Assembly (NCBI RefSeq): GCF_010731655.1
Contig: NZ_AP022619.1
Span: 1,116,001-1,180,000 of the forward strand
Length of the DNA: 64,000 nucleotides
Source: Mycobacterium paraseoulense
Lineage (GTDB): Bacteria; Actinomycetota; Actinomycetes; Mycobacteriales; Mycobacteriaceae
Direction of reading: 5' to 3'
Numbering within the stretch: position 1 is the first letter of the stretch; the number at the start of each line of letters is the position of its first letter. The notes below the pieces were generated by a model that did no database searches, was not told the origin of the DNA, and saw nothing but the letters and a program-made list of their open reading frames with translations. This document shows positions 8,579-39,800 of the stretch, piece by piece. The position numbers were made by a program, and so were the translations under genes.

Positions 8579-8589
8579 CCGGAGCCCGC

Positions 8590-21549: not shown

Positions 21550-21578
21550 AATCTATGAACGTTGCTGACTAAAGTCAA
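21550..21578 (-). promoter_or_regulatory. Promoter with overlapping TGAC-N4-GTCA operator (site A)
   Basis: Read on the minus strand there is a -35 box TTGACT (21573-21578), a 17-base spacer and a -10 box TAGATT (21550-21555). The leader to the SDR start would be about 34 bases. The palindrome CTGACTAAAGTCAA (plus-strand 21565-21578) covers the -35 box, an arrangement typical of repression. The same core recurs at 23588-23601 and 23741-23754. The divergent TetR gene begins at 21711. Confidence 0.6.
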
Positions 21579-21710: not shown

Positions 21711-22322
21711 GTGAGGAACGAAATGGCTGTCACAGACCGGCTGTCGGCACGAGAAGCGAAGCGCCTGCAGACAAGGGAACGATTGATGGGCGCCGCGATC
21801 GCGGAGTTCGCCCGGGCCGGCATGGCAGAGGCCGACGTCAGTGCCATCGTAGCCGCCGCAGGCGTCGCCCACGGAACCTTCTTCTTCCACTTCCCCACCA
21901 AGGAGCACGTGCTGCTGGAGCTGGAACGCCGCGAAGAGGACCGCATCGCCAAGCAGTTCGCGCAATTCCTCAAGGCCAAGCACGATCTGGCTTCCGCTCT
22001 GAATGAGGCGGTCCGCCTGGTCATCGGACTGGAACGCCGGCTGGGCGATCTGCTCTTCAACGACTTTCTCGCGCTGCACTTCTCACAAACTCGTCCGCCG
22101 ACCGAAGACGGCAGGGATCACCCCTTGATCGTCTTGGTCGCCCAGGAGATCGCGCAGGCTCAAGAACGCGGCGAGGTTGATCCCGACGTCAGCCCGATGA
22201 ACAGCGCGGTTTTCTTCTTGCTTGGCCTCTACTCCCTGTTGATCACGACCAACCACTGGCCGACGGGCCGCGCACTGCTGGAGGATTACGTCGCGCGGAC
22301 GTTGCGCAGTATGCGGCCCTGA
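21711..22322 (+). CDS. TetR-family transcriptional regulator, candidate regulator of the TGAC-N4-GTCA sites
   Basis: This protein has 203 residues from the GTG at 21711, or 199 from the ATG at 21723. The helix-turn-helix lies at about residues 20-60 (RLMGAAIAEFARAGMAEADV, GVAHGTFFFHFPTKEHVLLE). The C-terminal domain is helical and would bind the inducer. It is divergent from the SDR/DapB/mycofactocin-type operon, and a palindromic operator lies in the shared 201-base gap. Related palindromes precede the genes at 23460 and 23805, so this is the simplest candidate for a local regulon repressor. The stop is ten bases from the convergent DapB-fold gene. Confidence 0.9.
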   Translation: MRNEMAVTDRLSAREAKRLQTRERLMGAAIAEFARAGMAEADVSAIVAAAGVAHGTFFFHFPTKEHVLLELERREEDRIAKQFAQFLKAKHDLASALNEAVRLVIGLERRLGDLLFNDFLALHFSQTRPPTEDGRDHPLIVLVAQEIAQAQERGEVDPDVSPMNSAVFFLLGLYSLLITTNHWPTGRALLEDYVARTLRSMRP

Positions 22323-22332
22323 GGCAGGCGCT

Positions 22333-23460
22333 TCACGGACGAATCACGCCGCGCAGCGGAATGAGCCCAAGTTCGTTGTGGGACATGAAGCCCGGTGGGG
22401 CGTCGCAGACGGCGGGAATGGCGTTCGCGGGGCCCATCGCGGTCCAGGTATAGCCGGGCAACGCGTAACCGCCATGCGGGTCCTGGGCCCCCTGGAGGAT
22501 CAGCTCGGTGGACGAGTCACCCTCGATCACGATGCGGTAGTGATAGTGCTGAGGCCAATTCTCCGGTGGCTCAATGGCATCGTAGGTGTCCATCGTGTAG
22601 ATCTCGTGAAAGACGATGAGCGGGCGCCCCTTGACCCAGGCGGTCCATTTGTGATGCTGGCGGGCGACGGTGCCCGCCTTGATCACTCCCTTGAAGCCCG
22701 GCATGTCGCTGGTCTCGGATCCCTCGAAGGGAATGTCGCGCGTCGCGACCCCGAGTTCAACCTCCGTCGTGTACCTTTCGACCGTCTCGCCCATGTGCTC
22801 GACGATCATCGCCATCGACTGTGCGAACAGGGGCCACGCTTGGCCCAGCAGATTCGGGCCGTCCTCGAAACCGGCCGGATCGCTCCCCATCCCCATCTCG
22901 AACAAGTACTTCAGGGTGTCCCTGCCGAAATTCACAACCTCGTAGATGTGGATGGTGTCGATCTGGCTGACGATCCGGGCCAACGTCAGGACTAGCAGGT
23001 CGCCCGCAAATCCGGGGTTGATTCCCCCTGCGTGGAATGAAGTACCACCCTCTAGGCACGCGGCGTGAATCTTGTCGATATCCGCCCGACTGTGCTCGGT
23101 TCGGTACCACCACGCGCCGCCCGACGCGACCACGTTCTTCCCCCCGCGCAGCAGCCGGCAGACCTCGTCGGGATCGGACCACAGCGGCGCGTAGAACACG
23201 CAGTCGGCATCGAGAGCCTCGATGGCCGTTTTGTCGTCGGTGGCGAGCACGCCGGTCGGTGGCGCGCCGCACAGCTCGCCGGCGTCTTTGCCGACCTTTT
23301 CGGGTCGATTGCAGAGCACCCCGACCAGTTCGTAGGCGGGGTTATGGGCAAAGTGACGAAGCGCCACCGTTCCGACATTGCCGACGCCCCATTGGATCAC
23401 GCGGTACTTCCGCTCGGCCGACGATTTTGGGGCCGCGGTCTTGTCTTGGGTGAGCGTCAT
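22333..23460 (-). CDS. DapB-fold NAD(P)H-dependent dehydrogenase, paralogue 2
   Basis: I start it at the ATG at 23460 (MTLTQDKTAAPKSS), which follows AAAGGAG; this gives 375 residues. The Rossmann motif is VIQWGVGNVGTVALRHF near residue 21. It is followed by YELVGVLCNRPEKVGKDAGE, LDADCVFYAPLW and GGINPGFAGD, collinear with the paralogues at 19574 and 28372. The C-terminal half (PFEGSETSDMPGFKGVIKAG) is longer than in DapB itself. The gene is transcribed divergently from the membrane-protein operon, with a TGAC-N4-GTCA palindrome in between. The substrate is unknown. Confidence 0.82.
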   Translation of the reverse strand: MTLTQDKTAAPKSSAERKYRVIQWGVGNVGTVALRHFAHNPAYELVGVLCNRPEKVGKDAGELCGAPPTGVLATDDKTAIEALDADCVFYAPLWSDPDEVCRLLRGGKNVVASGGAWWYRTEHSRADIDKIHAACLEGGTSFHAGGINPGFAGDLLVLTLARIVSQIDTIHIYEVVNFGRDTLKYLFEMGMGSDPAGFEDGPNLLGQAWPLFAQSMAMIVEHMGETVERYTTEVELGVATRDIPFEGSETSDMPGFKGVIKAGTVARQHHKWTAWVKGRPLIVFHEIYTMDTYDAIEPPENWPQHYHYRIVIEGDSSTELILQGAQDPHGGYALPGYTWTAMGPANAIPAVCDAPPGFMSHNELGLIPLRGVIRP

Positions 23461-23587
23461 CGCTACTCCTTTGCATGCACCGGCTGCGCTATCACGAACG
23501 AGCGTTCTCGCCGGCACACCAGGCCTGAATGGCAGGGCGCCTGCCGAGCGTAGGCGCGGGCCGATTGATGTGTCAACGACCAACCAC

Positions 23588-23601
23588 CTGACTTACGTCA
23601 G
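23588..23601. promoter_or_regulatory. Palindromic operator, site B
   Basis: CTGACTTACGTCAG has perfect five-base arms (CTGAC/GTCAG) around TTAC. It lies 12 bases upstream of the candidate -35 box of the leftward DapB-fold gene. Adjacent GTCAGTTAATGAC overlaps it and adds a second GTCA/TGAC pair. It shares its core with sites A and C. Confidence 0.6.
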
Positions 23602-23740: not shown

Positions 23741-23765
23741 CTGACTACAGTCAGCCTGTTATAGT
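23741..23765 (+). promoter_or_regulatory. Operator site C and -10 box of the membrane-protein operon
   Basis: CTGACTACAGTCAG (23741-23754) has perfect five-base arms around TACA. Five bases further on is TATAGT (23760-23765), a good -10 hexamer. A start about 34 bases before the GTG at 23805 would follow. The -35 region is weak (TTCTGC/TCTGCT), which could mean an activated promoter or one where the operator overlaps the polymerase footprint. Confidence 0.6.
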
Positions 23766-23804: not shown

Positions 23805-24545
23805 GTGAATCCGCCGAAGCTGGACCACCGCGATGCCGGCATCGGCACGGCCGCCGGCCCGACCCGCCCGGCCGCCGGTCTGACCATCGACGAGCACATG
23901 GAGCGGTCGCAACTGGCGCAGCGTCGGGCCGACAAGTGGCTCATCTCCGGCAGCCTCCTGATCGGCACCGCGGCCCTGGGTGTCTTCGGGTTGCCGCTGT
24001 TTCTCTGGGGGGTCCGATTGCTGCGCCGGGCCCAGCGAGATGGCCTGTCCGTACGGCCGATGTTGGTCACGCTGCTCGGATATCTGGTCATCATCGACGC
24101 CGCCATCAACACCGTCGGATGGGCGCTTGACCTGGTGGCAAACCACACACTGCTGGCACGCGTGCTACTCAATGGCTGGGGCAACATGTTCGACGCCGGC
24201 TATTTCTGGCACTACAACGAGCTGTGGGTCGGCGGCGCGGCCGGTCCGGGCGAAAAGGCCTGGGAAGTCGGGCTCATCCTGACCGTGTTCACGATGCGCA
24301 TCGCCGCGGCCATCGGCTTCCTGCAGATGAAACGGTGGGGCCATCAGTGGATGGTCGTCACGTGCTGGATGGGCGTGGTGATCTGGATCGGCTACGTCTT
24401 CAACATGACCATGTTCGCCGACGTGCGCTACGCCGGCGTCGTGCTGCCGGTCGTCGGCTGGTGGCTGTACGACATCTTCTACATCACCCCGTTCCTCGCC
24501 ATCCCGTATCTGCACACCGTGAACCGAGAACTGTTCTCCGACTGA
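23805..24545 (+). CDS. Multi-pass membrane protein of unknown family, copy 1
   Basis: I do not recognise the family. The 246-residue protein has a soluble N-terminus of about 45 residues and then roughly five to six hydrophobic helices (for example LISGSLLIGTAALGVFGLPL, MLVTLLGYLVIIDAAINTVG, VVGWWLYDIFYITPFLAIPY). Polar residues that could bind metal lie in or near membrane segments: MFDAGYFWHYNELWVGG (residues 128-144), KRWGHQW, WWLYDIFY and LHTVNRE. Residues 124-246 are about 91% identical to the protein at 27203. It starts at a GTG after GGGGAGG and heads an operon with a CbbQ/CbbO-like pair. It may be a catalytic membrane subunit; this is inference. Confidence 0.8.
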   Translation: MNPPKLDHRDAGIGTAAGPTRPAAGLTIDEHMERSQLAQRRADKWLISGSLLIGTAALGVFGLPLFLWGVRLLRRAQRDGLSVRPMLVTLLGYLVIIDAAINTVGWALDLVANHTLLARVLLNGWGNMFDAGYFWHYNELWVGGAAGPGEKAWEVGLILTVFTMRIAAAIGFLQMKRWGHQWMVVTCWMGVVIWIGYVFNMTMFADVRYAGVVLPVVGWWLYDIFYITPFLAIPYLHTVNRELFSD

Positions 24546-24589
24546 CATGCGCGAGCTGAAATCGATTACGTCACCGAGGAGGTCACGTC

Positions 24590-24694
24590 GTGGGCTATCT
24601 GTGGGAAATCTTTCGCTATGTCGCCGCTTGGGGCGGCACCGGGCTGATCATCTGGTTCTGGTACTGGTTGTTCTCCAACATCGGCACGTTCTGA
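24590..24694 (+). CDS. 34-residue single-pass membrane peptide
   Basis: This short gene encodes 34 residues beginning VGYLWEIFRYVAAWGG and ending FSNIGTF. It follows GAGGAGGTCACGTC, a proper ribosome site, before a GTG at 24590. The middle (GLIIWFWYWLF) is a Trp-rich membrane helix. Its place 44 bases after copy 1 of the membrane protein and directly before the VWA gene, and the presence of a second small membrane peptide before copy 2, suggest a small accessory subunit of a membrane complex. No homologue is known to me. Confidence 0.7.
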   Translation: MGYLWEIFRYVAAWGGTGLIIWFWYWLFSNIGTF

Positions 24695-24733
24695 CCGGTG
24701 GAACCGGCGGTCGGACGGCGAGGATGTCGGTCG

Positions 24734-26257
24734 ATGCCTGAGGATTCACACGCGATGGCGCTGGAGCGGAGTTGCTCGGTGACGGCGGTCGCGCTCAGTG
24801 AGTGTCGTCGCGAGGGTGTCCGGCTCGTCACCGGTGAGCGGCGCAGTTTCGGGTTGAACGCGGCGCTGACGTTCGTTCATGTCCCCTACCCAGCGCTGCC
24901 GGGTTGGACCCGCAGGGCCCTGACATGCGGTGTGGCCCTGCAATGTTCGCCGTCGAAAGAACGCGTTCTCGAACATCGCCTGAACGAGTTGTCCCCACGC
25001 GAGTTGCGCGCGCTCACGCTTGTCGAAGGCGCCGTCGCGCTCGGCTGGATCGCCTCGCGGTGGCCGGGGCTGCTGCCCGAGCTGCAACGGTTACTTCCGG
25101 AATTTCGTCCCGAACCCGGCGATACGCCCGCCGGGCAGATGTTCGGCCGGGCGATGGCGTTGGCGCGCACGAAGCGGCGCTTGACGATTGATCCGCTGCT
25201 GGGCCATCTGCCGCTGGCCCACACGATGCCGCACGGCCTGACGGACAGGCTGCGCCGCAGCGTTGGCCGGATGCCCTGGACTAGCACGCAGAAACGTCTG
25301 CCGCGGCCGTACTCGGTTCCCGTCGGCGGCGACGGGGGCGTCCGCAACCCCAACCTGCCGCCACCGAGCCGTCCGCAGGACAACGATTTGGACGTCACGC
25401 CAGAACACCGGCCCGGCATCCCCTATCCCGAATGGAACATGTGGACACAGCGTTTTATGCGCGATCACGTGGCTGTGATCGAGCGCACGGATGACCGGCG
25501 CACCCGCCGTCCGGTGCACGTAGCCGTCGACGTGCGCAAGTGGTTCGAAGAACACACGCATCGCGCGATGACGAACCGCCTCGAAGACGGCTCCGATCTC
25601 GATGTCGACCAATACGTCAACCACTACGTCGACCTGACCACCGGCGAGGCCAAGGAGCCCAAGATCTTCCGCGACTTGCTGCCCAGCGGCCGCGACGTCA
25701 CCACGGCCGTGCTGCTCGACGGCAGTTCGTCGCTGGGGGTACACCGCGGACGCATCTTCCAACTGGAATTGGCCTGCGCGGACGCGCTTTCACGGGCCAT
25801 GACGCTCGCGCACGAGCGACACGGCGTGTTCGTCTTCACCGGCAATACCCGCCACCGAGTCGAAGTCCAGTGCCTGAAGGACTTCGAGGACCGCCGCTTC
25901 GTAGTTCCGAGCGGGCTCGGGCTGTCCACCCGCGGATACACCAGACTCGGTGCGCCGCTGCGCCATTTGACCAGCCGACTCCTCGCGCAGCCCTCCGAGC
26001 GGCGACTGCTGATCGTCATCGGCGACGGGCTGATCTCCGACGAAGGTTACGAGGGCCGCTACGCCTGGGCGGATGTCGCGCACGCCGTCGAGGAGGCCGG
26101 CGACGCCGGGGTGTCGATGTATTACGTCGGCGTAGGACCCACCCGCGTCGATCCCCTTCCGGAAGTGTTCGGGCCCCGGCGTTCCCAACGGATCCGGCGC
26201 GTAGAGGAGCTCCCGCGGGTGTTGGCTCACGTCCACCGTGAACTGGTCGCCGCATGA
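24734..26257 (+). CDS. VWA-domain protein of the CbbO/NorD type
   Basis: From the ATG at 24734 it has 507 residues; GTG 24698 and ATG 24755 are alternatives. The N-terminal 240 residues are mostly helical (SPRELRALTLVEGAVALGWI). The C-terminal third is a von Willebrand A domain with MIDAS sequence LDGSSSLG near residue 328, plus FVFTGN and VIGDGLISDEGY. This is the layout of CbbO and NorD, which act together with a CbbQ/NorQ AAA+ ATPase. The partner ATPase gene follows with a four-base overlap. The pair would remodel or metal-load a client protein, most likely one encoded in this operon. Confidence 0.85.
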   Translation: MPEDSHAMALERSCSVTAVALSECRREGVRLVTGERRSFGLNAALTFVHVPYPALPGWTRRALTCGVALQCSPSKERVLEHRLNELSPRELRALTLVEGAVALGWIASRWPGLLPELQRLLPEFRPEPGDTPAGQMFGRAMALARTKRRLTIDPLLGHLPLAHTMPHGLTDRLRRSVGRMPWTSTQKRLPRPYSVPVGGDGGVRNPNLPPPSRPQDNDLDVTPEHRPGIPYPEWNMWTQRFMRDHVAVIERTDDRRTRRPVHVAVDVRKWFEEHTHRAMTNRLEDGSDLDVDQYVNHYVDLTTGEAKEPKIFRDLLPSGRDVTTAVLLDGSSSLGVHRGRIFQLELACADALSRAMTLAHERHGVFVFTGNTRHRVEVQCLKDFEDRRFVVPSGLGLSTRGYTRLGAPLRHLTSRLLAQPSERRLLIVIGDGLISDEGYEGRYAWADVAHAVEEAGDAGVSMYYVGVGPTRVDPLPEVFGPRRSQRIRRVEELPRVLAHVHRELVAA

Positions 26258-27063
26258 ACGCCGCCACCGACATATATTTCGCGAACGGCAATGAGGTCCA
26301 GCTGTTCGAGCAGGCCTTCCGTCAGCGCCTGCCCGTGATGCTCACCGGACCGACCGGATGCGGCAAAACACGATTCGTCGAGCACATGGGCCTGCTGTTG
26401 CGACGACCGGTCGTCACCATCAGTTGCCACGACGACCTCACCAGCTCCGATCTCGTCGGCCGCTTCATGGTGACCGGCGGCGACGTGGTCTGGACCGATG
26501 GACCGCTGACCCGCGCCGTCAAGGCCGGCGCTATCTGCTACCTCGACGAAGTCGTCGAAGCTCGCCACGACTCGTTGGCCATCCTGCACTCGCTCACCGA
26601 CCACCGCCGGTCGCTGTATCTCGATCGAGCCGGCGAAGTCGTGACCGCGCCGGAGGAGTTCATGCTGGTGTGTTCCTACAACCCGGCGTACCGCAGCTCG
26701 CTCAAGGAGCTCAAACCGTCATTCCGGCAACGGTTCGTCACGCTCACGATGAGGTATCTGCCGCCTGAGCGCGAGGCCGAAGTGATTGTCGCCGAAGCCG
26801 GAATTCCCATCGCGACGGCACGGCGGCTGGTCGGATGCGCGGTTGCCATTCGCACCGCCGACGAAGCCTTTCACTTCGAGCCGCCGTCCACCCGGGTGCT
26901 GGTCACGGCCGCACACATGATCGCTGCCGGCGCAACCGAATTGGATGCGGCCGACGCCTGCATACTCGCGCCACTGAGCACCGACGGCGCGGTCACCGAC
27001 GGCCTACGCGAAGTCGCGGCGGCCAGCCTGGCCGCCACGGACACCCCGAGCGCAACCCCCTAG
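26254..27063 (+). CDS. AAA+ ATPase of the CbbQ/NorQ/MoxR type
   Basis: This 269-residue ATPase has Walker A GPTGCGKT at residues 32-39 and a Walker B segment AICYLDEVVEA near 92-102. Sensor 1 lies in MLVCSYNPAYRSS and an arginine-finger region in LKPSFRQRFV. The order and spacing match the CbbQ/NirQ/NorQ branch of MoxR ATPases, including a helical C-terminal lid (about 200-269). Known members activate Rubisco or assemble the nitric oxide reductase iron site with their VWA partners. The start ATG overlaps the VWA stop (ATGA). No Rubisco or norB-like gene is present, so the client is likely one of the novel membrane proteins. Confidence 0.9.
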   Translation: MNAATDIYFANGNEVQLFEQAFRQRLPVMLTGPTGCGKTRFVEHMGLLLRRPVVTISCHDDLTSSDLVGRFMVTGGDVVWTDGPLTRAVKAGAICYLDEVVEARHDSLAILHSLTDHRRSLYLDRAGEVVTAPEEFMLVCSYNPAYRSSLKELKPSFRQRFVTLTMRYLPPEREAEVIVAEAGIPIATARRLVGCAVAIRTADEAFHFEPPSTRVLVTAAHMIAAGATELDAADACILAPLSTDGAVTDGLREVAAASLAATDTPSATP

Positions 27064-27077
27064 GAAAGGAGTCCGGC

Positions 27078-27206
27078 ATGGACCGACAGGAGCAGAAGCG
27101 CAAACGGGCGCTCATCGTCTTCCAGATCTTCATCTACGGCTACCTGCTGGTGATGTTCGGCATCCAGCTGTACATGTCGTTCGCCCGGGGGTGGTGGGAC
27201 TTGTGA
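27078..27206 (+). CDS. 42-residue single-pass membrane peptide
   Basis: The gene encodes MDRQEQKRKRALIVFQ and so on, ending FARGWWDL. It follows AAAGGAG at a spacing of seven bases. A very basic N-terminus (KRKR) precedes one membrane helix (ALIVFQIFIYGYLLVMFGIQ), predicting a cytoplasmic N-terminus. Its TGA overlaps the GTG start of the following membrane-protein gene (GTGA), showing translational coupling. It parallels the 34-residue peptide next to copy 1, though the two peptides are not obviously similar. Confidence 0.75.
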   Translation: MDRQEQKRKRALIVFQIFIYGYLLVMFGIQLYMSFARGWWDL

Positions 27207-27925
27207 ACCTGCCTCTGCTCAAACGCAATTCGGACGGAGGACCGACCGGCACCGGATCGGTCAGCCTCGAGGATCACCACGACGAGTCCCGCCAAGCGCA
27301 GCGTCGGGCCGATAAGTGGATGATCATCGGCGCCGCCCTGATGGGCATGTGGGCGCCGGGGCTCATCGGATTTCCCATCTTCATGCGTGGGGTGTGGCTG
27401 CAGCGCCAAGCGCTGCGCGCCGGCTTGTCGGTCCGGCCCATGATCGTGACGCTGATCGGTTATCTGGTCCTGATCGACGGAATGCTCAACAGTCTCGGCT
27501 GGGCTCTGGACCTGGTCGCCAACCACACGCTGATCAACCGGGTGCTGATGGTTGGGTGGGGCAACATGTTTGATGCCGGCTACTTCTGGCACTACAACGA
27601 GCTCTGGGTCGGCGGTGCGGCGGGACCGGGCGAGAAGGCCTACGTGGCGGGGCTGATCCTCACGGTGTTCTCGATGCGGGTGGCCGCGGCAATCGGGTTC
27701 CTGCAGATGAAACGGTGGGGCCATCAGTGGATGATCGTCACCTGCTGGATGGGCGTGGTGATTTGGTCGGCCTACGTGTTCAACATGACCATGTTCGCCG
27801 ACGTGCGCTACGCCGGCGTCGTCTTCCCGGTCGTCGGCTGGTGGCTCTACGACATCTTCTACATCACCCCCTTCCTCGCCATCCCGTATCTGCACACCGT
27901 CAACCGCGAAATCTTCACCGACTAG
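27203..27925 (+). CDS. Multi-pass membrane protein of unknown family, copy 2
   Basis: I chose the GTG at 27203, which overlaps the stop of the 42-residue peptide gene; this gives 240 residues. Hydrophobic helices correspond one-to-one with copy 1 (23805). About 112 of the last 123 residues are identical to copy 1 by eye, including FDAGYFWHYNELWVGGAAG and RWGHQWM. The N-terminal half is more diverged (MWAPGLIGFPIFMRGVWLQR against the FGLPLFLWGVRLL segment). The retention of two copies on either side of the CbbO/CbbQ genes suggests a heteromeric complex or divergence of function. The family is not recognised. Confidence 0.8.
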   Translation: MNLPLLKRNSDGGPTGTGSVSLEDHHDESRQAQRRADKWMIIGAALMGMWAPGLIGFPIFMRGVWLQRQALRAGLSVRPMIVTLIGYLVLIDGMLNSLGWALDLVANHTLINRVLMVGWGNMFDAGYFWHYNELWVGGAAGPGEKAYVAGLILTVFSMRVAAAIGFLQMKRWGHQWMIVTCWMGVVIWSAYVFNMTMFADVRYAGVVFPVVGWWLYDIFYITPFLAIPYLHTVNREIFTD

Positions 27926-27943
27926 GTCTCAAGGAGGGTTGCC

Positions 27944-28375
27944 ATGACCGCCTCATCTCCCACGGAAGAACAGGAACCGGCCACGGATCTCGAGCCGGGA
28001 ACCACTCCGTACTACGCGCGTATGCACAAATGGATCAAGCGGGCCGTCTTGGTCTGCCTGGTGGCACTGGTGATCGAAGGCGCGTTCACGTTGCCGTTCA
28101 TGGCGGTCTATTACGGCTACCCCACGCTCAGCCTCACCCAGATCTGCAGCGAACTGCTCAAGATTCGCTACTCGAACGACACGCTGGAGTGCAAGTACCC
28201 CTACCCGCCATTCGGGCCGCCCGAGGGCGCCGAGGGAAAGGCCACCGCGCAGGACGTGTGGGGTATCCAGCCGATACCGAAGTATCACCGGCTCGGGTTC
28301 CGCGAGCTCGTCAAGATCCACAACGAACGGCTGGCCCGGCAGGCCGCCCAACAGCATTCGGCGCCGCACCCGTGA
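27944..28375 (+). CDS. Single-pass membrane protein with extracytoplasmic cysteine pair
   Basis: This 143-residue protein starts at an ATG preceded by AAGGAGGG. The first 25 residues are acidic. A basic stretch [15 protein letters not shown] leads into one membrane helix ([20 protein letters not shown]), so the remaining 85 residues should face outward. That part has two cysteines ([20 protein letters not shown]), several Tyr/Pro residues (YPYPPFGPP) and histidines near the end. The cysteines could form a disulfide or bind a cofactor. I do not recognise a family. It lies between copy 2 of the membrane protein and a DapB-fold gene, whose GTG overlaps its stop. Confidence 0.75.
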
Positions 28376-29424
28376 CCTATCGGGTCGTGCAATGGACGAC
28401 GGGCAACGTCGGCAAGAGTTCGGTGCGCGCGATCGCCTCGAACCCGGCGCTGGAGCTGGTCGGATGTTACGCCTGGTCGCCGGGGAAGGTCGGGTGCGAT
28501 GTGGGCGAGCTGTGCGGGATTGAACCCCTCGATGTGAAGGCCACCAACGACATCGAGGCCCTGCTCGCGCTCAAGCCCGACTGCGTGGTCTACAACCCGA
28601 TGTTCGCCGACGTCGACGAGCTGGTCCGCATCCTCGGTGCGGGCGTTAACGTCGTGGGCACGGCCGGGTTCATCACCGGCCACTTTCTCGGCGCGGGTCG
28701 CGATCGCATCGCCGAGGCCTGCCGGCAGGGCGGGTCAACCATCTTCGGCAGCGGCATCAATCCGGGGTTCGTGCAACTGTTCGCGATCGTGTCGGCCGGG
28801 CTGTCGGATCGAGTCGACAAGGTATCCATGCTGGAATCCGTTGACACGACGATCTACAACTCGCCGGCCACCGAGATACCGATGGGCTTCGGCTATCCCG
28901 TCGACCAGCCCGATCTGCCGGCGATCACCGCCAAGGGTTCGGGCGTCTTCCGGGACGCCGTGTTGCTGGTCGCCGACGCTCTGGGCGCCGACCTCGACGA
29001 CGTGCGTTGCGAAGTCGAGTATGCCAGCACCACCGAAGACCTCCATCTTCCCGGCGACTGGACGATCGCCAAAGGCTGCGTCGCGGGGGTGGACGTCCGG
29101 TGGAAGGGGATCGCCCTCGACCGCGAGGTCATCGAAATCCGTGGGCGCTGGCGCAAGGGTCAAACGTTGGACCCGGACTGGCCGCTGGACATGGGCTACA
29201 CCATCGAGGTTCAAGGGCGACCGACCATCAAGACCACGCTGAGTTTCCTTCCACCGCCAGACTTTCAGGGCGAGACGTTGGACGACTACATCATGTTGGG
29301 TCTCACGATCACCGCCATGCCGGCGATCACCGCGATACCCGCCGTCGTCGCCGCCCCACCCGGCATCGCCACCTACAACGACCTACCGCTGCTCCTTCCC
29401 CGCGGAGTGCTGGCACGAAATTGA
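28372..29424 (+). CDS. DapB-fold NAD(P)H-dependent dehydrogenase, paralogue 3
   Basis: The GTG at 28372 overlaps the preceding stop (GTGA) and gives 350 residues. The start [20 protein letters not shown] carries the dinucleotide motif TTGNVG. Shared blocks follow: [32 protein letters not shown] and [10 protein letters not shown]. It is the third member of this family in the window. As a soluble NAD(P)-dependent enzyme inside an operon that otherwise encodes membrane proteins and a P450, it may reduce or oxidise an intermediate made by them. Substrate unknown. Confidence 0.83.
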
Positions 29425-29430
29425 GAGGAC

Positions 29431-30708
29431 GTGGCTTTGATGCCCCAGACCAAACATCACGCGCCGCCTGCCCCCGGGCCCGGTGCGCCCAGTGTCTTCG
29501 ACGCCGGCCTCCCGACGCTCGAATATGACATCACCGAATCACCGCACGAGGTGTATCCCCGCATCCGGGCCGCGCAGCGGCAGGGCCCGATCGCCATCGG
29601 CCCGATCGGCCCGGAAGTCCTTTCCTACGAGCTCGCCCGCGCCATCCTGCGCGACACCCGATTTGTGATCCCCCCCGGATTGCATCTGGCGGCGCAAGGC
29701 GTGACCTCGGGTCCGCTCTGGGACAGAGTCGTCGGCAGCATCATCTGCGCCGAGGGCGCCGAACATCATCGACTGCGAAGCCTGGTGTCGAGGGCCTTCA
29801 CACCGCGGGCGACCGCGCGGTTGTACGACACCATCGACGAAGTGGTCAACGAACTCGTCGATGGCGTCGCCGACACCGGCCGCTGCGACGTCGTCACCGA
29901 TATCGCCCGTCAGTACCCGATCCCCATCATCTGCGCGCTGCTGGGTGCGCCCCGCGGAAGCTGGGAACAGTTCTCCCACTGGGCCGAAACCATTTTCAAG
30001 ATGGTGAACTTTTCGGTGAATCTCGTCGACGAAATGCCCGCGGTCCTTGAGGGCTGGGCCGAGCTCGACGCTTATGTCGATGAAATGGTGGCCGAACGAC
30101 GACACCGGCTGACGGACGACTTGCTGTCCGATCTCATCCGCGCCGAGGACCCGACTCGTCGAGGCGATCGGCTCAATGCCGACGAACTGCGGATGACCGT
30201 GGCCGGATTGTTGCTTGCCGGAACGGATACCACGCGCAACCAGCTGGCCGCCTCCATGCAGGTACTCCTCGATCACCCCGAGCAGTGGGCCATGTTAAGT
30301 GCGCACCCCGAGCTCGCCGCACCGGCGGTCGAGGAGAGCATGCGCCACTCCCCCGCAGTGTGCAACACCGTCCGCACGGTGCACGAAGACGTGGAATTGG
30401 GCGGCTACTCGTTCCCCAGCGGCACCTACCTCGTGGTGAATTCATTTGCCGCCAACCGTGATCCGGCCATCTATCCAGATCCCGACCGCTTCGACATCAC
30501 CCGCACGGAAGCGCCTGCGGTGCTGACGTTCGGTGGCGGCGTGCACTATTGCCTGGGCGCCAGCCTGGCCAGACTGGAGCTGGCCGAAGGTCTCAAGATA
30601 TTGGCGCAGCGGCTGCCGAATGCCCACCGTGTCGGCCCGGCTCCGTGGAAACCGATGCTCGGCATGAGCGGTCCGACAAGCCTTCTCGTGGAGTTCGACC
30701 GCCAATGA
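29431..30708 (+). CDS. Cytochrome P450
   Basis: This protein has 425 residues from the GTG at 29431; an ATG at 29440 is the alternative. The I-helix motif is AGTDTT, ExxR lies in EESMRHSP, and the heme loop is FGGGVHYCLGASLAR with the thiolate near residue 374. The proximal region FAANRDPAIYPDPDRFDITR is typical of bacterial class I P450s. It is distinct from the P450 at 16802. No ferredoxin or reductase gene is adjacent. As the ninth gene of the operon it presumably hydroxylates the same or a related hydrophobic compound. Confidence 0.92.
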   Translation: MALMPQTKHHAPPAPGPGAPSVFDAGLPTLEYDITESPHEVYPRIRAAQRQGPIAIGPIGPEVLSYELARAILRDTRFVIPPGLHLAAQGVTSGPLWDRVVGSIICAEGAEHHRLRSLVSRAFTPRATARLYDTIDEVVNELVDGVADTGRCDVVTDIARQYPIPIICALLGAPRGSWEQFSHWAETIFKMVNFSVNLVDEMPAVLEGWAELDAYVDEMVAERRHRLTDDLLSDLIRAEDPTRRGDRLNADELRMTVAGLLLAGTDTTRNQLAASMQVLLDHPEQWAMLSAHPELAAPAVEESMRHSPAVCNTVRTVHEDVELGGYSFPSGTYLVVNSFAANRDPAIYPDPDRFDITRTEAPAVLTFGGGVHYCLGASLARLELAEGLKILAQRLPNAHRVGPAPWKPMLGMSGPTSLLVEFDRQ

Positions 30709-30738
30709 CGATCTCACGAGTGCGCTTGGAGGTCACCG

Positions 30739-31158
30739 ATGAATGACTCATCGCCGCGCCTGCATCACGTCGTCTTCGCGGTGGCAAGTGAACGACATGA
30801 CGCTGTGGGACGACTATTTACCGAGCTGGGCTTCAGCTTCGACGAGATCAACTTGGACGAACTGGGGCTTCGGGTGCTCCTGGATTGGAATCGGGGGATC
30901 GAGCTGATCAGCCCGCATCCCTCGTCCACCGCCACGGTGGCCACCTCGGTGGCCGAGTTCTTGGCGAGCCATGGCGACGGCGTCTACACCGTGGTGGTGC
31001 AGGTCGAAGCGGCGTCACAGGCCGACGAGATCGCCGAGCGTTACGGGTCCATCACGCGCTTCCGGCAAGGCTTCGAGGGCGAGGGCAATTACCTGGAGGA
31101 AATCGACCTGTCGGTGTGCGGCCTGCCGCTTACCTTCCTGTCGACCAACCTGCCCTGA
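30739..31158 (+). CDS. VOC (glyoxalase/bleomycin-resistance fold) protein
   Basis: This 139-residue protein begins RLHHVVFAVASERHDAVGRL, a first beta-alpha-beta unit of the vicinal oxygen chelate fold. A second unit, GDGVYTVVVQVEAASQADEI, follows. Only some of the usual His/Glu metal ligands are evident (H9 or H10 and late Glu residues), so it may be a non-catalytic or divergent member. GGAGG seven bases before the ATG supports the start. It is the last gene of the rightward operon; Rv2047c-like converges 17 bases further on. Confidence 0.75.
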   Translation: MNDSSPRLHHVVFAVASERHDAVGRLFTELGFSFDEINLDELGLRVLLDWNRGIELISPHPSSTATVATSVAEFLASHGDGVYTVVVQVEAASQADEIAERYGSITRFRQGFEGEGNYLEEIDLSVCGLPLTFLSTNLP

Positions 31159-31175: not shown

Positions 31176-33782
31176 TCAAGGACGGGCTGTCCGCCGCGGC
31201 AGTTCCAGCAGGCGGATCTCGCCCGAGGCGCCGTCGACCTCGACGAGGGCGCCGGGCGGCAACGACTTGGTGGCTCCCTGCACGTCCACCACGCAGGGGA
31301 AGCCGAATTCGCGGGCCACCACGGCGGCGTGTGACATCGGGCCGCCGAGTTCGGTCACCACAGCGGCGGCGTAACAGAAAGCCGCGGTGTACCCGACGTC
31401 GGTGACCTCCGCGACCAGAACTTCGCCGGGTCGCAGGTCGTCGATGGTGTCGGGCCGCACGATTCGCACGCGGCCGCGCACCTTGCCCCCGCATACGCCG
31501 ACACCGCGCAGGGTTTCCCCGCTGGTGAGAACGGCGGTCGCCGTCGTCGTCGGTTGCCAGGTCCCGCTGAACACCGTCGGCGGAACCACGGCGACCAACC
31601 GGCGTTGTTCGGCGCGGCGACGGGCCACCAGCGCCCCGACATCCGCCGGCAGCGCATCGAGCTCATCCACCAGCAGATAGAACACATCGTCGGCGGTATC
31701 GAAGATTCCGGCCTCGACCAGCCTGCGCCCGTACTCGCGCATCAGGTTGCGCAGTACCCAGTTGGCCCGCACCACTTTGTCGCGACGGACCTCGCGGTCG
31801 CGCAGTTGGCGGCCCGCCAGCTGAGCAATTGGCTTGGCGTGCATGGGGATCACGGCACGCGGCGGCTGGGGCGCCGGAGGGACGCTCATCGCTCGGGTCA
31901 CCATCCGGACGACCAGCTCGGGATCATCGGCGTAACTGATCGACAGCATCTCGAGTTCGGCCGGGCCGCGATGCCCGATCAACGCCAGCTCGGCCAGCAC
32001 GGCGGCGTGAAACTCCGGCGCCTCGACGGCCAGCTTGCCCAGCCGCTCCCCCGGTTCGGCCAGCAGCGCGGTCACTTTCGGGTCGCGTTGTGCGGCGACC
32101 ACCAACCGCTGGATCGCCTCGACCGATCGCGCACTGACTAATTCGGGCCCCGCCGGCGCAGCGGTCTCCCGCCCACACAGGCCGCGCAGCAGGACGTTGA
32201 ACGCGGCGCACAGCATGAACGACGCCGATGCCAGCACCCAGCCGTACACCACATCGTCGCGCGCCAACGAGATCAGGCTGAGCAGCCGACGATCGTCCAG
32301 CCGGGTGGCGTCGTCGGCCAGGCGTTCGAGGCGATCGACATCGCCGACGAACTCGTGGGTGTCCCTCGACGACCCGGCGGACAGCCCGATGAGGTTGACG
32401 CCGAATACCCCGATGTTGCGAATGGTCCGCAGTTGCTTTCGGATTCGGCTTGTTTCGGAACTCGGCCGCTCCTCACCGAAGATCGGCAGCGACGCCATGC
32501 TGGGGCCGAAAAATCCGCTGTTGCTGACGATCGTCGCGGGCTTGGCAAACGGTACGGTCTCGGCCATGTAATGCGCCGAGGTGATGGCCCCGTAGAGCCG
32601 GTGGGCGAACACGGCGACGGTCCGCGTGGCGATCTCACGCTGGATAATGCCGCCGGGGCGCAGCCGCTCGGCGATGGCGACTCCGCCGGCGCGCAGCCCG
32701 CGTACGGTCACCGACGCCGACGCCGGCGAGAACGGGCCCGGCAGCGCCTCCGACAAATTGGTGGCCAGAAAAGTCGGGAAGCGCGGGTCGATCGGGGTAT
32801 CGAACTCGCCGTTGTCTCCGGCTGGGCCAGCCCAATCGGGCTTCACCCCGTCCTCGGTCGGCGCGTCGACGGACGGAAGGTCGTCGACGGTGGCCATCCG
32901 CCACGGTAGCGACACCACCCGCTTGCCCAGGGTGACCCGGCCGCGCACCGACCGCGCGAAATCCTCGACGCATTCACCGGAGTTCCACGCGGCACGGAAT
33001 CCCCACTGCTCACGCAACCGCGCGGTATCCATGAACGCCGCGCCGTGCACGAGTTGCAGCTCGGCCGGTCCAAGGCCCAACCGCACGACGGGGCGTCCAA
33101 CCGCCGCGGCAACCCGCCGGAAGGTCAGCTCGCCCGGGGCCGCGAGATTGACCGGGCCGCTGCCGATTTCGCTGTCCACGATCGCCCGGTTGAATAGCCG
33201 AAGGGCGTCGTCGAGGTGGACGACCTGCATGAGACGGTCGGCCGACCCGTCGGGGAATGCCGGCCGCGCCAGCAGCCGACGCACCCAGTTATCGACGCTT
33301 CGGCCGAGAATCAGCGCGGAGCGGATGGCGACCCATTGCAAATCCGATTCCTCGAGCATCCGCTCGACCCGAGCCTTGTGTCGACCGTCGGCGCTGACCG
33401 GTGTTGTCTCGTCGTGCTCGGTCCGGGGCGCGTTTCCGCCCCCGTAAACCTGTGCCGACGACGCGAAGACGATCCTCCTGGCTCCGGTGCCAGCCACCGC
33501 CGCCAGCAGATTGCGGGTGCCCTCGATGTTGACCTGCTCGCTGATGCGGGCCTCGGGACCCGGGCTGTTCGCCCAGGCGAGGTGCGCGACGGCCTCGGCG
33601 CCGGCGACCGCGCGGCTGACCGCATCGGTGTCGCGGATGTCGGCCGCGACGAATTCGGCCGCGCTCGGCCAGCTTTCGGGTCTGCGGCGGGCGATCCCGA
33701 CGACGTCGTGGCCCTGGCTGAGCAGGCGGAGGGCCAGGCCCCGGCCGAGCACGCCGCTCGCCCCGGTGATGGCGATCCTCAC
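31176..33782 (-). CDS. NAD-dependent epimerase fused to PEP-utilising mobile domain (Rv2047c homologue)
   Basis: This 868-residue protein begins with an extended SDR/epimerase domain: MRIAITGASGVLGRGLALRL, SSAQVYGGGN and following segments, residues 1 to about 290. A long middle region (about 300-720) has no motif I can name but resembles the central part of PEP-synthase-like proteins. The C-terminus carries the phosphohistidine mobile domain with TELGGPMSHAAVVARE (His near residue 815). The ATP-grasp domain of a full PEP synthase is not evident. It lies 25 bases downstream of pks12 on the same strand, as in M. tuberculosis. A role linked to the Pks12 product is inferred only from position. 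Confidence 0.88.
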   Translation of the reverse strand: MRIAITGASGVLGRGLALRLLSQGHDVVGIARRRPESWPSAAEFVAADIRDTDAVSRAVAGAEAVAHLAWANSPGPEARISEQVNIEGTRNLLAAVAGTGARRIVFASSAQVYGGGNAPRTEHDETTPVSADGRHKARVERMLEESDLQWVAIRSALILGRSVDNWVRRLLARPAFPDGSADRLMQVVHLDDALRLFNRAIVDSEIGSGPVNLAAPGELTFRRVAAAVGRPVVRLGLGPAELQLVHGAAFMDTARLREQWGFRAAWNSGECVEDFARSVRGRVTLGKRVVSLPWRMATVDDLPSVDAPTEDGVKPDWAGPAGDNGEFDTPIDPRFPTFLATNLSEALPGPFSPASASVTVRGLRAGGVAIAERLRPGGIIQREIATRTVAVFAHRLYGAITSAHYMAETVPFAKPATIVSNSGFFGPSMASLPIFGEERPSSETSRIRKQLRTIRNIGVFGVNLIGLSAGSSRDTHEFVGDVDRLERLADDATRLDDRRLLSLISLARDDVVYGWVLASASFMLCAAFNVLLRGLCGRETAAPAGPELVSARSVEAIQRLVVAAQRDPKVTALLAEPGERLGKLAVEAPEFHAAVLAELALIGHRGPAELEMLSISYADDPELVVRMVTRAMSVPPAPQPPRAVIPMHAKPIAQLAGRQLRDREVRRDKVVRANWVLRNLMREYGRRLVEAGIFDTADDVFYLLVDELDALPADVGALVARRRAEQRRLVAVVPPTVFSGTWQPTTTATAVLTSGETLRGVGVCGGKVRGRVRIVRPDTIDDLRPGEVLVAEVTDVGYTAAFCYAAAVVTELGGPMSHAAVVAREFGFPCVVDVQGATKSLPPGALVEVDGASGEIRLLELPRRTARP

Positions 33783-33807: not shown

Positions 33808-36800
33808 TTACTCGTCGTCGTCGTCCATCAGCGCCGCGTTGACCAAGTCCTCGAGGTCCATGTCCGCGATATCCTTCTCCGAGGTCACCGCCGCCCCCGG
33901 GGACTGCCCGTCGGCCCGACCGCCGTCGGCCTCGTTTGCCAACGCGAGCAACAGCTCCAGCACCCCGGCCTGCCGCAGGCGCTTGACCGGAATCGACCCC
34001 ACCGCGCGCTGGATCTCGGCCTCCCCGGGCGCCGCGACAGGGCTCTGTTGCTCGGTTGCTCCGACGAGTTCTCGGTGCATGTAACCGGCCAGCGCGGCGG
34101 AGTTGGGATAGTCGAAGATCAGCGTCGGCGACAGCGCAAGGCCGGTAGCGGATTTCAGCCGGTTACGCATCTCGACAGCGGTCAGCGAGTCGAAGCCCAG
34201 CTCCTGGAATGCGCGGTCCGGATCGATGGACTCCGGGCTGGAGTTGCCGAGCACGGTGGCGATGTTGGATCGCACCAAGTCCAGCAGAACCGCATGTTGC
34301 TCGTCCTCGGGCAATCCTTCCAGGCGCTGCAGCAGGGCCGATTTCGACTTCGCCGCGGCCAGCGAATCGTCGACCTGGCGACGGGTCGGCGCGTTGATCA
34401 GATCGACGAACATCGGCGGCAACGTTCCACCGTCGAACTTGACCCGCAGGGCGGCACGGTCGATGTGGGCGGGCAACAGGAACGGCTCGTCGACGACGAG
34501 CGCGGTGTCGAGCAGTTCCAACGCCTCGTCCGAGGACATCGCGACAATCCCGTCGCGCCCGAACCGGGCACGGTCGGCCGCACCGAGCGCGCCGGTCATC
34601 GCGCTGGCCTGGTCCCACAGTCCCCAGGCCAACGACATCGCCGGCAACCCGTGCATGCGCCGGTGCACGGCCAACCCGTCCAGGAACGAGTTGGCCGCCG
34701 CATAGTTGGCCTGACCCGACGCTCCCGCCAATCCGGCCATCGATGAAAACAGCACGAACGCCGACACATCCAGGTCGCGGGTCAGCTCGTGCAGGTTCCA
34801 CGCCGCGTCGACCTTGGCCCGCAACACCGCGGCCACCCGCTCCGGGGTCAGCGATGAAATCACCGCGTCGTCGAGGACGCCGGCCGCGTGAAGCACTCCC
34901 GACAGCGGCCGCTGCACCGGGATATCGGCGATCACCTTGGCCAGGGCCTCGCGGTCGGCGGCATCGCAGGCCACCACCTGCACCTGGGCACCGGCGGCGC
35001 CGAGCTCCGTCACCAACTCCGCGGCCCCCGGCGCGTCCAGACCGCGCCGGCTCACCAACACCAGATTCCGCGCCCCGTGGCGCGCCACCACGTGGCGGGC
35101 CAACGCCGAACCCGCCATCCCGGTGGCACCGGTGATCAACACCGTGCCGGCCGCCCAGGCGTCCGGCAGGGTCATGACAACCTTGCCGACGTGGCGGGCC
35201 TGGCTCAGATACCGCAACGCCGCCGGCGCGCGCCGCACGTCAAACCTGGTCACCGGCAACGGCCGGAGCACGTCGTCACCGAACAAGGCGACCAGCTCGT
35301 CGAGGATCTGCGCAATGCGGTCCGGGCCGGCCTCGAACAGATCGAACGCGCGATAGCGCACGCCGGGATGTTCCTGGGCCACCACCTCGGGCTCGCGCAT
35401 GTCGGTCTTGCCCATCTCCAGGAACACGCCACCGGGGGCGACGAGTCGCAGGGAGGCATCCACGAAGTCGCCGGCCAGCGAATCCAGCACCACATCCATC
35501 CCCGCCACGCCGGTCCTACCGGTGACCGCCCGGAACTTTTCCTCGAAGTCCAGGCTGCGGGAATCCGAGATGTGATCCTCGTCAAAGCCCATGTCCCGCA
35601 GCGTGTCCCACTTGCCGCGGCTGGCGGTGGCGAACACTTCCAATCCCAGATGGCGGGCCAGCTGGACCGCGGCCATGCCGACGCCACCGGTGGCGGCGTG
35701 CACCAGCACCCGCTGGCCCCGCTTGGCGGCCGCCAGGTCCACCAGCGCGTAGAAGGCCGTCGCGAACACCACCGTGGTCGTGGCAGCCGCCGTGTGCGAC
35801 CAGCCGGCCGGCATCTTGGCGAGCAGGCGCTGATCCGTCCTGGCGATCGTTCCGGTGCCGTCGGGGAACAGCCCCATCACGCGGTCGCCGATCGCGAAAC
35901 GTGGCTCGTCCGAGCCCGTTTGCGGGCCGGTTTCCACGACGACGCCGGAGGCCTCGATACCCATGACGGCCTCGGGATCCGGATACAGCCCCAGCGCGAT
36001 CATCACGTCACGGAAGTTGGCGGCCAGCGCCGACAGCGCGACGCGCACCTGCCCCGGCTCCAGCGCGGCGTCGGCGTCCGGGATCCGTTCCAACCGCAGA
36101 TTCTCGAACGTGCCGGAACTGCTCATGCCCAGTCGCCACGGCCCGTCGGCCGGGGGCACCAGCAGACCGCCGACGGCGCGGCTGCCATGCACCCGGGCGG
36201 TGTACACCGCCCCGCCGCGCAGCAATACCTGCGGCTCGCCGACCGACAGGGCGGCGGCGGCCGACTCATCGTCCAACGGGCTATCGGTGTCGACGAGGAC
36301 GATCCGGCCGGGGTGTTCGGTCTGCGCCGACCGCACCAGGCCCCACACCGCCGCGCCGGCGAGGTCGGTGACGTCCTCCCCCGGCAACGTCATCGCGCCG
36401 CGCGTCGCCACTATCAAGGTGCCCGCCCCGTCGCGGGCCAGCCAGGACTGCAGGACGGGCAACACCGCGCGGGTGGCCGCGTAGACCTCGGCCACAACAT
36501 CGTCGGACACCGGCGCCGACTCGAAGACCACCGCCGACGGTTGCGGCCGGGAGTCATCCGATTCGGTTGCGCCCCAACCAGACACCGTGACGGGCTGCAC
36601 CGACGTCGACCGCTGCGCCGACCAGACCACCTCGAACAGCCGGTCCGGTCCCGAATTCGACACCGCCGCCATCAGCTGCTGGTCGGTCACCGGCCGGGCC
36701 ACCATCGAGGCGACCGAGAGCACCGGCAGCCCCAGACCGTCCGCCAGCTCGATCGACACCGCCGAATCGCTCACCGGCACGATCCGCGCCCGCACCGCCG

Positions 36801-39800
36801 TCGCGCCCGCGGCGTGCAGCGACACCTGCTGCCACGAGAATGGCACCAGCATCGAACCTTCGGGGAGATCGTCGCCGTCAGACGTCAAGATCACGGCGTG
36901 TAGCGCCGCGTCGAGCATCACCGGGTGGACACCGAAACCGGCCGGCGAGACCCCCGCGTCGGCGGGCAGGGTGACCTCCGCGAAAACCTCGTCGCCGCGA
37001 CGCCACATCCCGGTCAGGCCTCGGAACGCGGGCCCGTATCCGTACCCGCGGGCGGCCAGGCGCTCATAGCCGTCGCCGACGTCCACCGGGGTGGCACCCA
37101 TCGGTGGCCACGCCGACAGATCGACACTGGGCTGGACGGAGCCGGCGCGCAGCACACCCTCGGCGTGCAACGACCAACCCGAACCCGCGTCGGCACGCGA
37201 AAAGACCGACACGGCGCGGGCGCCCGATTCGTCGGCACCACCGACCACTACCTGCACCGCGACCGATCCCGAACCCGGCAACACCAGCGGCGCAGCCAAA
37301 TTCAGCTCGTCGACCACGCCGCAGCCCACTTCGTCGCCGGCGCGGATCGCCAGCTCCACGAATCCCGCGCCCGGGAACAGCACCACACCGCCGACGGCGT
37401 GGTCGGCCAGCCAGCCCTGCGCGGTGGGCGACAGCCGGCCGGTCAACACCACCCCGCCCGACGCCGGCAGTTCCACCACCGCACCGAGCAGCGCATGCTC
37501 GCCGGGAGCGAGCCCCAACCCCGCGGCGTCAACCGGGGCGCCCTCGCCGGACAGCCAAAACCTCCGGCGCTCAAACGCATAGGTGGGCAGCTCCACGAAA
37601 TTGGCTTTACCGACGGCCGCGCGCCAATCCACGTCCATCCCGGCGACGAATCCTTGCGCGACGGCGCGCATGAGGGTCACCGGTTCGGGGCGGTCCTTGC
37701 GCAGCGCCGAGATGGTGATCGCGGGGGCGTCGGGAAGCGTTTCTTCGATCGATGCCGTCAGGCCGCTGTTGGGGCCGACTTCGAGGAAGCGGGTTCCGCC
37801 GGCCGAGTGTACGAAGCGCACGCTGTCGGCGAACCGCACCGCCTCGCGGATGTGCCGTTTCCAGTAGGCCGGCGAAGCGAAGTCGTCGGCGGCCGGCTGG
37901 CCGGTCAGGTTCGACACGATCGGTATCGCCGGTTTGCCGACGGCGAGCCCGGCTGCCACCGTGCCGAATTCATCGATCATCGGATCCATCAGCGGCGAGT
38001 GGAACGCGTGGGACACCGCCAATCGGTGGACGCGGCGGCCGTCGGCGCGCAGTCGGTCCGCCATCGCCTCCACTTGGTCCTCAGCGCCCGAAATAACAAC
38101 CGACGCAGGCCCGTTGACGGCGGCGATGCCGACCTCGGGCCCCAACAGCGGCCGCACTTCGTCTTCGGTCGCCTGCACGGCGATCATCGCCCCGCCCTGC
38201 GGCAGGGCTTGCATGAAGCGGCCGCGGGCGGCCACCAGGACCGCCGCGTTCTCCAGCGACAGGACGCCGGCGACGTGCGCGGCCGACAACTCCCCGATCG
38301 AGTGGCCCAGCACGAAGTCGGGCTGGACACCCCAGGATTCGAGCAACCGGAAGAGGGCGACTTCCACCGCGAACAACGCCGGCTGCGCGAATTCGGTGGT
38401 ATTCAACAGGTTTTCGTCGTGGCCCCACATGACCTCGCGCAACGGCCGCAGCAGGTGCCGGTCGAGCTCAGCAACCACCGCGTTGAACGCCTCGGCGAAC
38501 ACCGGGTAGGCGGCGTGCAGGCCCATTCCCATGCCGAGTGTCTGGGCGCCCTGCCCGGGAAAGACGAAAACGGTCTTGCCGCCGGGCGTCGCCGTCCCCT
38601 GAACGACCGATCCGGCTTCACCGGTGGCCAACTCGTCCAGGCCGGCCAGCAACTGCTCGCGGTCACCGCCGACGACGACGGCGCGGTGCTCGAAGTTGGA
38701 TCGGCCCGCCAACGACCAGGCCACGTCGCCGGCGTCGAGCCCGTCCCGCTCGCGCAGGTGCCCTGCGAGCCGCGCCGCCTGGGAACCCAATGCCGACAAC
38801 GACTTTGCCGACACCACCCATGGCACGACCGGCGCTGTGGAGCGCTGCACGACAGGGGCGGCCTCCGCGGGCGCGGCCTCGATGATCACGTGCGCGTTGG
38901 TGCCGCTGATGCCGAACGACGACACGCCGGCCCGGCGCGGACGGTTCGCCGGCCAGGGCTGCGGCTCGGTGAGCAACGCCACCGATCCCACCGACCAGTC
39001 GACGTGCGGGCTGGGTTCGTCGACGTGCAGCGTCGCCGGCAGCAGGTCGTGACGCATCGCCAGCACCATCTTGATCACACCGGCCACGCCGGCGGCCGCC
39101 TGCGTGTGGCCCATGTTCGACTTGATCGATCCCAGCAGGAGCGGCTCGGCCCGGTCTTGCCCGTAAGTCGCCAGCAACGCCTGGGCCTCGATGGGATCGC
39201 CCAATGTGGTTCCCGTGCCGTGGCCTTCGACCACGTCGACCTCGGTCGCGGACAGTCCGGCATTGGCCAACGCCGCGCGCACCACCCGTTGCTGCGACGG
39301 ACCATTCGGCGCGGTCAAGCCGTTGGACGCGCCGTCCTGATTGATTGCCGAACCCCGCACCACCGCCAGCACCGGGTGGCCCAACCGCCGCGCATCCGAG
39401 AGCCGCTCCACGACCAGCATGCCGCCGCCTTCGGAGAATCCGGTGCCGTCGGCGGCCCCCGCGTACGCCTTGCACCGGCCGTCGGCGGACAGCCCGCGCA
39501 TCCGGCTGAACTCCACGAAGATGTCGGGTGTGGCATTCACGGTGACGCCACCCGCCAGCGCCAGGTCGCACTCCCCCGAGCGCAGCGACTGCGCCGCCAT
39601 GTGCAACGCCACCAACGACGACGAGCACGCCGTGTCCACCGACACCGCGGGGCCCTCCAAGCCCAGCACGTAGGACACCCGGCCCGACGCCACGCTCGAC
39701 GACTGCCCGGTCAGGCGGAAACCCTCCGCGGCCGGGGCGGCGCCCATCCCGTAGCCCTGCGTGTACACCCCGGCGAACATGCCGGTCGCGCTGCCGCGCA

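Follow-up and report, generated by a model that had tools for sequence, protein, structure and literature searches.

A conserved mycobacterial cassette joining predicted EBP-like membrane proteins to a NorQ/NorD-type AAA+/VWA pair

The 64,000-nucleotide stretch of the Mycobacterium paraseoulense genome analyzed here (hereafter the window; NCBI RefSeq assembly GCF_010731655.1, contig NZ_AP022619.1, positions 1,116,001 to 1,180,000) contains an operon of ten co-directional genes at 23805–31158 on the forward strand, which overlap or are separated by short gaps in the list of open reading frames (ORFs), just as the original prediction made from the letters had described. The genome is a single contig of 6.09 Mb, and the operon lies near 1.14 Mb. 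The core of the operon codes for two related multi-pass membrane proteins (MemA and MemB, collectively Mem), two very small peptides (mp1 and mp2), a single-pass protein (SP), a VWA protein, and a MoxR-type AAA+ ATPase. This cassette has a fixed gene order, its Mem and VWA genes are inherited together, and it has a locus-specific operator sequence, intact motor motifs, and a set of invariant polar residues in Mem. We tentatively interpret the operon as coding for an EBP-like Mem pair with three small proteins and a NorQ/NorD-type motor that would load metal into them, the whole forming a lipid-processing complex.

Conservation and co-inheritance of the cassette

The loci compared are the best 80 of 317 relatives in named genomes, mostly of Mycobacterium and Mycolicibacterium with a few of Nocardia, Aldersonia, and Mycolicibacter; being chosen in this way the sample is biased towards close relatives, and because the loci are related the counts are not independent. 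Seventy-four of them extend at least 5.2 kbp past the first Mem start and could be tested for gene order (the other six are too short), and in all 74 MemA is followed by mp1–VWA–AAA+–mp2–MemB–SP, so the grouping is not due to chance. Copies more than 60% identical to the three genes at the right end of the operon are found in just 43 (DapB-like), 44 (P450), and 48 (VOC) of the 74 long loci, and these genes are therefore accessory. Among the 70 loci of at least 18 kbp, 66 have some P450 gene and 65 some DapB-like gene, and the whole 6.1 Mb M. paraseoulense genome contains 91 P450 match pieces. The P450 is a frequent neighbor outside the fixed core.

Co-inheritance is evident in 198 genomes sampled from the genus. 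Mem is present in 107, the VWA partner (E 1e-30 or better) is present in 104, all of which are within these 107, and none of the 91 genomes without Mem has a VWA match at this threshold; the tie between the motor pair and the membrane proteins that was originally proposed is upheld by this survey. The three Mem genomes without the VWA partner include two with Mem fragments (G399 and G545) and one with a full but diverged Mem (G453), and G399 and G453 have just 31–32% NorD-like matches elsewhere in the genome. In G545 the truncated 63-residue Mem (locus L114, 6229–6420) lies in a cluster otherwise resembling that of G453, which suggests gene decay. In a sample of the phylum Mem is present in 9 of 396 genomes, among them M. 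paraseoulense and a remote genome described below (G121), and in the class of G121 it is found in one of 249, G121 itself. A plasmid record carries a distant copy, and a search of viral contigs confirmed none.

The AAA+/VWA pair and the membrane proteins

The ATPase scores far above the Pfam cut-offs for AAA_5 (121.2 bits against 22) and CbbQ_C (71.1 against 20.6), and among PDB sequences NorQ (9qh4) is its best match at 257 bits, followed by the CbbQ-type proteins 5c3c (233) and 6l1q (222). The Walker A (GPTGCGKT) and Walker B (LDE) motifs are kept in at least 97% of 79 aligned ATPases. The VWA protein narrowly misses the Pfam VWA cut-off (PF00092, 22.5 bits against 23.8) and matches NorD (9qhd) over residues 218–505; its NorD matches begin at residue 211 or 218, leaving the N-terminal part unmatched. 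Its listed solved relatives are all NorD-type, the presence of CbbO structures in the PDB being unchecked. The metal ion-dependent adhesion site (MIDAS) motif is DGSSS in 78 of 81 VWA sequences, DASSS in two, and DASAS in one, and the MIDAS residues T401 and D429 are kept in at least 97%. The GTG at 24698 opens the longest ORF for this protein, and conservation among orthologues starts nearer the ATGs at 24734 or 24755. The prediction of a CbbQ/NorQ-like and CbbO/NorD-like pair is thus confirmed, and by the available solved structures the pair appears a little nearer to NorQ/NorD than to CbbQ.

The NorQ/NorD pair serving the nitric oxide reductase cNOR (NorCB) is similar in having MIDAS and Walker motifs and an integral-membrane partner in its operon. 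It differs in that the Mem partner has no NorB/NorC family match, several micro-proteins are present here, and the VWA protein, at about 505 residues, is shorter than NorD (638–646). CbbQ of the CbbQ/CbbO Rubisco activase belongs to the same MoxR subgroup, but its similarity to the ATPase is slightly lower, and no Rubisco large chain (PF00016) was found in the M. paraseoulense genome. CoxD and CoxE have as their client CO dehydrogenase, a soluble molybdenum enzyme. They share with the present operon a MoxR AAA+ protein in a mycobacterial enzyme cluster, as does MSMEG_0748 (available part of PMC12657314). For NorQD, the available parts of PMC9976466 and PMC13036017 describe a VWA finger that inserts into the AAA+ ring and a MIDAS site required for the client but dispensable for NorQ binding, and propose that ATP-driven motion opens the client in the membrane to admit iron; according to the latter source, a helix-2 insert of NorQ/CbbQ-type AAA+ proteins grips the finger.

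MemA and MemB are 72–73% identical overall, with near-identity confined to the C-terminal part, and to call them near-identical, as was done at the outset, was an overstatement. At 94% identity, a Mycobacterium parascrofulaceum protein is the nearest to MemA among the matches listed. MemA, MemB, and SP match nothing beyond chance level in Pfam, NCBIfam, or PHROGs (no Pfam family at E 1 for SP, and no PF05241 match at E 1 for the window copies of Mem), and a profile (A3) searched against PDB sequences gave a single chance-level match (E 0.96). Fold searches with two AlphaFold models of Mem rank EBP and the sigma-2 receptor/TMEM97 at the top, suggesting an EXPERA-like fold; Foldseek alone gave nothing significant. 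The EBP family PF05241 is the commonest Pfam family for Mem, matched by 21 of 75 members at E 10 or better (best 8.1e-5), with the best member at 23.4 bits against a curated cut-off of 25.7. When 20 distant members were scanned singly, it was listed for 14 (E 8.1e-5 to 2.9) and absent for six. The plainly unrelated Plant_vir_prot is matched by 11 of the 75 members (best E 0.013). The membrane proteins were first described as unknown; they are not wholly so, their predicted fold resembling that of EXPERA proteins. Copper membrane monooxygenases (PmoA/PmoC), also considered, are absent from the rows shown of both fold lists, which excludes nothing.

Conservation was counted in 161 sequences, made up of the window copy, four outliers, and 156 Mem copies from the loci. 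In all of them D43, R84, D98, N102, W106, D109, D130, N138, E150, K151, R165, Y197, R208, and W220 are unchanged; the count is 160 for H114, 159 for H136, and 158 for D223. In a broader alignment of 75 sequences D43, R84, D98, N102, W106, D109, D130, E150, Y197, R208, and W220 are invariant, and N138, K151, R165, and H114 nearly so. In distant relatives H136 is replaced by D, E139 by A or S, and D223 by L or N. The metal ligands initially put forward, in FWHYNELW (H136 and E139) and WWLYD (D223), therefore do not hold, and they are weaker candidates than the acidic set. From their conservation D98, N102, D109, D130, N138, and E150 could bind metal or shuttle protons, and D98 and D109 lie inside a predicted membrane helix of MemA. 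In 34 bacterial EXPERA proteins an HxxxE pair in helix 2 (H101, E105) is kept in at least 90%; MemA has no histidine in helix 86–110 and has DxxxN (D98, N102) there instead. Mem thus shares with EBP and TMEM97 the predicted fold, the sub-cut-off matches, and conserved acids, but differs in the helix-2 pair, the extra small proteins, the dedicated motor, and the gene duplication.

At a lenient tblastn threshold (E 0.5), mp1 was found in 80 of 86 loci, mp2 in 77, and SP in 77, and judging from these matches the two micro-ORFs are conserved as proteins. In a simple hydropathy test for membrane helices mp2 and SP pass and the Trp-rich mp1 fails, although a membrane location is likely for mp1 as well. 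An apparent Mem-CbbQ fusion (P0108) was rejected: the mp2 stretch between its two parts is out of frame, so it reads as a metagenome ORF with a frameshift.

Remote sets, operator-like sites, and neighboring genes

The most remote full set is in G121 (locus L101), related at phylum level only, where Mem, VWA, and AAA+ are 40%, 35%, and 50% identical. The order is three peptides of 86, 46, and 44 residues (starts picked by hand), then Mem, VWA, and AAA+. In that order the peptides match mp2, mp1, and the SP helix; none of 1000 shuffles was as good, and no other pairing of them with mp1, mp2, or SP was notable in the shuffle test. Mce- and YrbE-type lipid-uptake genes (L101 1–4380) and P450 genes adjoin this cassette. 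In G050, of another genus in the same family, the order is tetR–mp1–VWA–AAA+–mp2–Mem–SP. Since the G121 and G050 sets each hold one Mem, the ancestral unit seems to have combined one Mem with the motor pair and three small partners, and the second Mem would be an addition.

Mem sets without an adjacent motor separate the client from the motor. M. paraseoulense itself has a third set (L102, C1:2158000–2176000, 8252–9717) with mp1, mp2, Mem, and SP consecutive and no adjacent VWA or AAA+ gene, surrounded by acyl-CoA, enoyl-CoA, short-chain dehydrogenase, and luciferase-like genes that read as catabolic from translations and a pooled Pfam tally. The solo diverged Mem of G453 sits in a cluster that also reads as catabolic, from translations only. 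On M. branderi plasmid pJCM12687 (L115) a diverged solo Mem is accompanied by small membrane peptides and lies at most 12 kbp from annotated Rieske, GMC, and mycofactocin-coupled enzymes. This solo Mem is the most diverged, and its peptides resemble mp1 and mp2 no better than many shuffled sequences do (170–648 of 1000 shuffles as good); an SP-like helix match is marginal (34 of 1000). The neighborhoods of the solo sets point to catabolism of hydrophobic compounds.

The cassette carries its own operator sequence. The strict pattern TGACTNNAGTCA has two matches in the genome, both at this locus, with none for a reversed-pattern control, so the genome has no further exact-pattern site. A looser palindrome, TGAC-N4-GTCA, is near the first Mem start in 79 of the 80 loci (the exception is L073). 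The product of the adjacent tetR gene probably binds the putative operators. All coordinates are given in the table.

Features of the operon and its upstream region (window coordinates)
Feature	Position	Strand	Evidence
Putative TetR operator TGACTAAAGTCA, upstream of tetR	21566..21577	.	One of the two genome-wide TGACTNNAGTCA matches
tetR, TetR-family regulator of the cassette	21711..22322	+	TetR_N Pfam E 3e-11; orthologue in 72 of the 74 long loci
Divergent DapB-like oxidoreductase	22333..23583	-	No Pfam match at 1e-5; DapB-like genes recurrent near the cassette
Weaker operator-like palindrome TGACTTACGTCA, upstream of the divergent DapB-like gene	23589..23600	.	
Putative TetR operator TGACTACAGTCA, upstream of MemA	23742..23753	.	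The other genome-wide TGACTNNAGTCA match
MemA, 246 residues, multi-pass membrane protein, predicted EXPERA-like	23805..24545	+	
mp1, 34-residue Trp-rich peptide, C-terminal SNIGTF, membrane location likely	24590..24694	+	74 of 74 long loci
NorD-like VWA protein, about 505 residues, MIDAS conserved, start uncertain	24698..26257	+	NorD 9qhd E 3.5e-28
NorQ/CbbQ-type MoxR AAA+ ATPase, 269 residues	26254..27063	+	AAA_5 and CbbQ_C above cut-off; NorQ 9qh4 E 1.2e-75
mp2, 42-residue single-pass peptide	27078..27206	+	74 of 74 long loci
MemB, 240 residues, MemA paralogue	27203..27925	+	74 of 74 long loci
SP, 143 residues, single-pass, two conserved Cys in C-terminal part	27944..28375	+	
DapB-like/diaminopentanoate-dehydrogenase-like oxidoreductase, accessory	28372..29424	+	PF19328 and PF01113 above cut-off
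Cytochrome P450, accessory	29431..30708	+	PF00067 E 3.7e-34
VOC-like protein, accessory, weakly assigned	30739..31158	+	Pfam E 0.18; 4HPPD model E 2.9e-4; both far under cut-off

The original assignment of the VOC protein is weak. Three regions outside the operon, all on the reverse strand, are also noted. At 31176–33782 an NAD-dependent epimerase domain is fused to a PEP-utiliser mobile domain, and many of the fetched loci have this fusion next to the cassette; at 33808–46332, near the operon, a single ORF of 4174 residues reads as a modular polyketide synthase; and at 11581–13584 an Ecdysteroid-kinase-like domain is present with DUF7064/DUF7065.

Possible functions of the Mem complex

In the mechanism we favor, though with less than even confidence, MemA and MemB would join mp1, mp2, and SP in one membrane complex, and the MIDAS site of the VWA protein would grip the apo-complex while the ATP-driven motor opens it, admitting a metal ion to the carboxylate-rich site; the pair would operate as in NorQD. 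The finished complex would then have a hydrophobic sterol- or terpenoid-like substrate, and the P450, DapB-like, and short-chain dehydrogenases would take the preceding or following steps. The specific proposal, possible but doubtful, is that Mem is a metal-dependent lipid enzyme of EBP (EXPERA) fold with three micro-subunits, the first such to be matured by an AAA+/VWA pair, in which a NorQ/NorD-type motor inserts the metal, and that it gives mycobacteria, and some other actinobacteria, a way to attack compounds resembling sterols or terpenoids. In a mycobacterial genomic island, three proteins have already been called homologous to 'Emopamil-binding protein', with no motor mentioned in the available part of that source (PMC4818103), and among the open-licence literature matches listed no paper links a NorQ/NorD machine to an EBP-like protein.

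Several observations weigh against a metal-loaded, EBP-like Mem complex. HHalign of Mem against the 34 bacterial EXPERA proteins found no relation, so the EXPERA relationship is unproven by sequence alone, and the case for it therefore rests on the fold ranking and the sub-cut-off Pfam matches. The solo Mem sets are evidence that some Mem proteins may do without a dedicated neighboring pair. Membership of a known family with no metal site was recognized from the start as damaging, and this is partly what was found, in that Mem resembles EXPERA proteins, which are not described as metal-binding in the available parts of the literature.

The strongest competitor is unlikely but only a little less probable than the metal-loading proposal: Mem would be a metal-free EXPERA-type isomerase or hydratase whose acids donate and accept protons, and the pair an activase comparable to CbbQ/CbbO for Rubisco, removing a bound inhibitor or rearranging the subunits. 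The predicted fold and the invariant acids, with D98 and D109 in the membrane, are consistent with this, EBP itself being thought to use acid/base residues (available part of PMC4263179), and the CbbQ score of the ATPase is nearly as high as that for NorQ. The absence of the HxxxE pair from MemA, the NorD-type relatives of the VWA protein, and a client integral in the membrane, as is cNOR, argue against this reading.

It is improbable that the Mem complex instead carries or senses a lipid or sterol, or forms part of a transporter for one, in the manner of the sigma-2 receptor/TMEM97, with the motor driving assembly or substrate release. TMEM97 does rank beside EBP in both fold searches and Mce/YrbE-type genes adjoin the G121 cassette, but that adjacency is seen in a single locus, the usual neighbors examined are oxidative enzymes, and a binding pocket by itself would not seem to require so strict a polar set.

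The original prediction held that neither known client of such pairs is here, and this stands for the operon, whose scanned proteins (mp1 and mp2 lay outside the scan) include no NorB/NorC or Rubisco family, and for Rubisco in the genome, but not for nitric oxide reductase, as a qNOR-like protein (3ayf, E 1.8e-154; no NCBIfam family at 1e-10) is encoded far away near 5.53 Mb (L118, C1:5531090–5532418). That the NorQ/NorD-like pair serves this or another client, its place beside Mem being incidental, is nonetheless very improbable, as the qNOR gene is distant, the pair lies between the Mem genes in every long locus, and the VWA partner never occurs without Mem in the genus sample.

Few MoxR/VWA pairs have known clients, and the best studied opens a membrane reductase for iron. 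Here a pair is genetically linked to an unrelated membrane protein in 104 of the 198 genus genomes, about half, which provides a natural test of motor recognition. If the client is indeed EBP-like, a fold familiar from sterol synthesis in eukaryotes would gain a motor-dependent bacterial branch, and overlooked micro-proteins would be subunits of an EBP-like enzyme.

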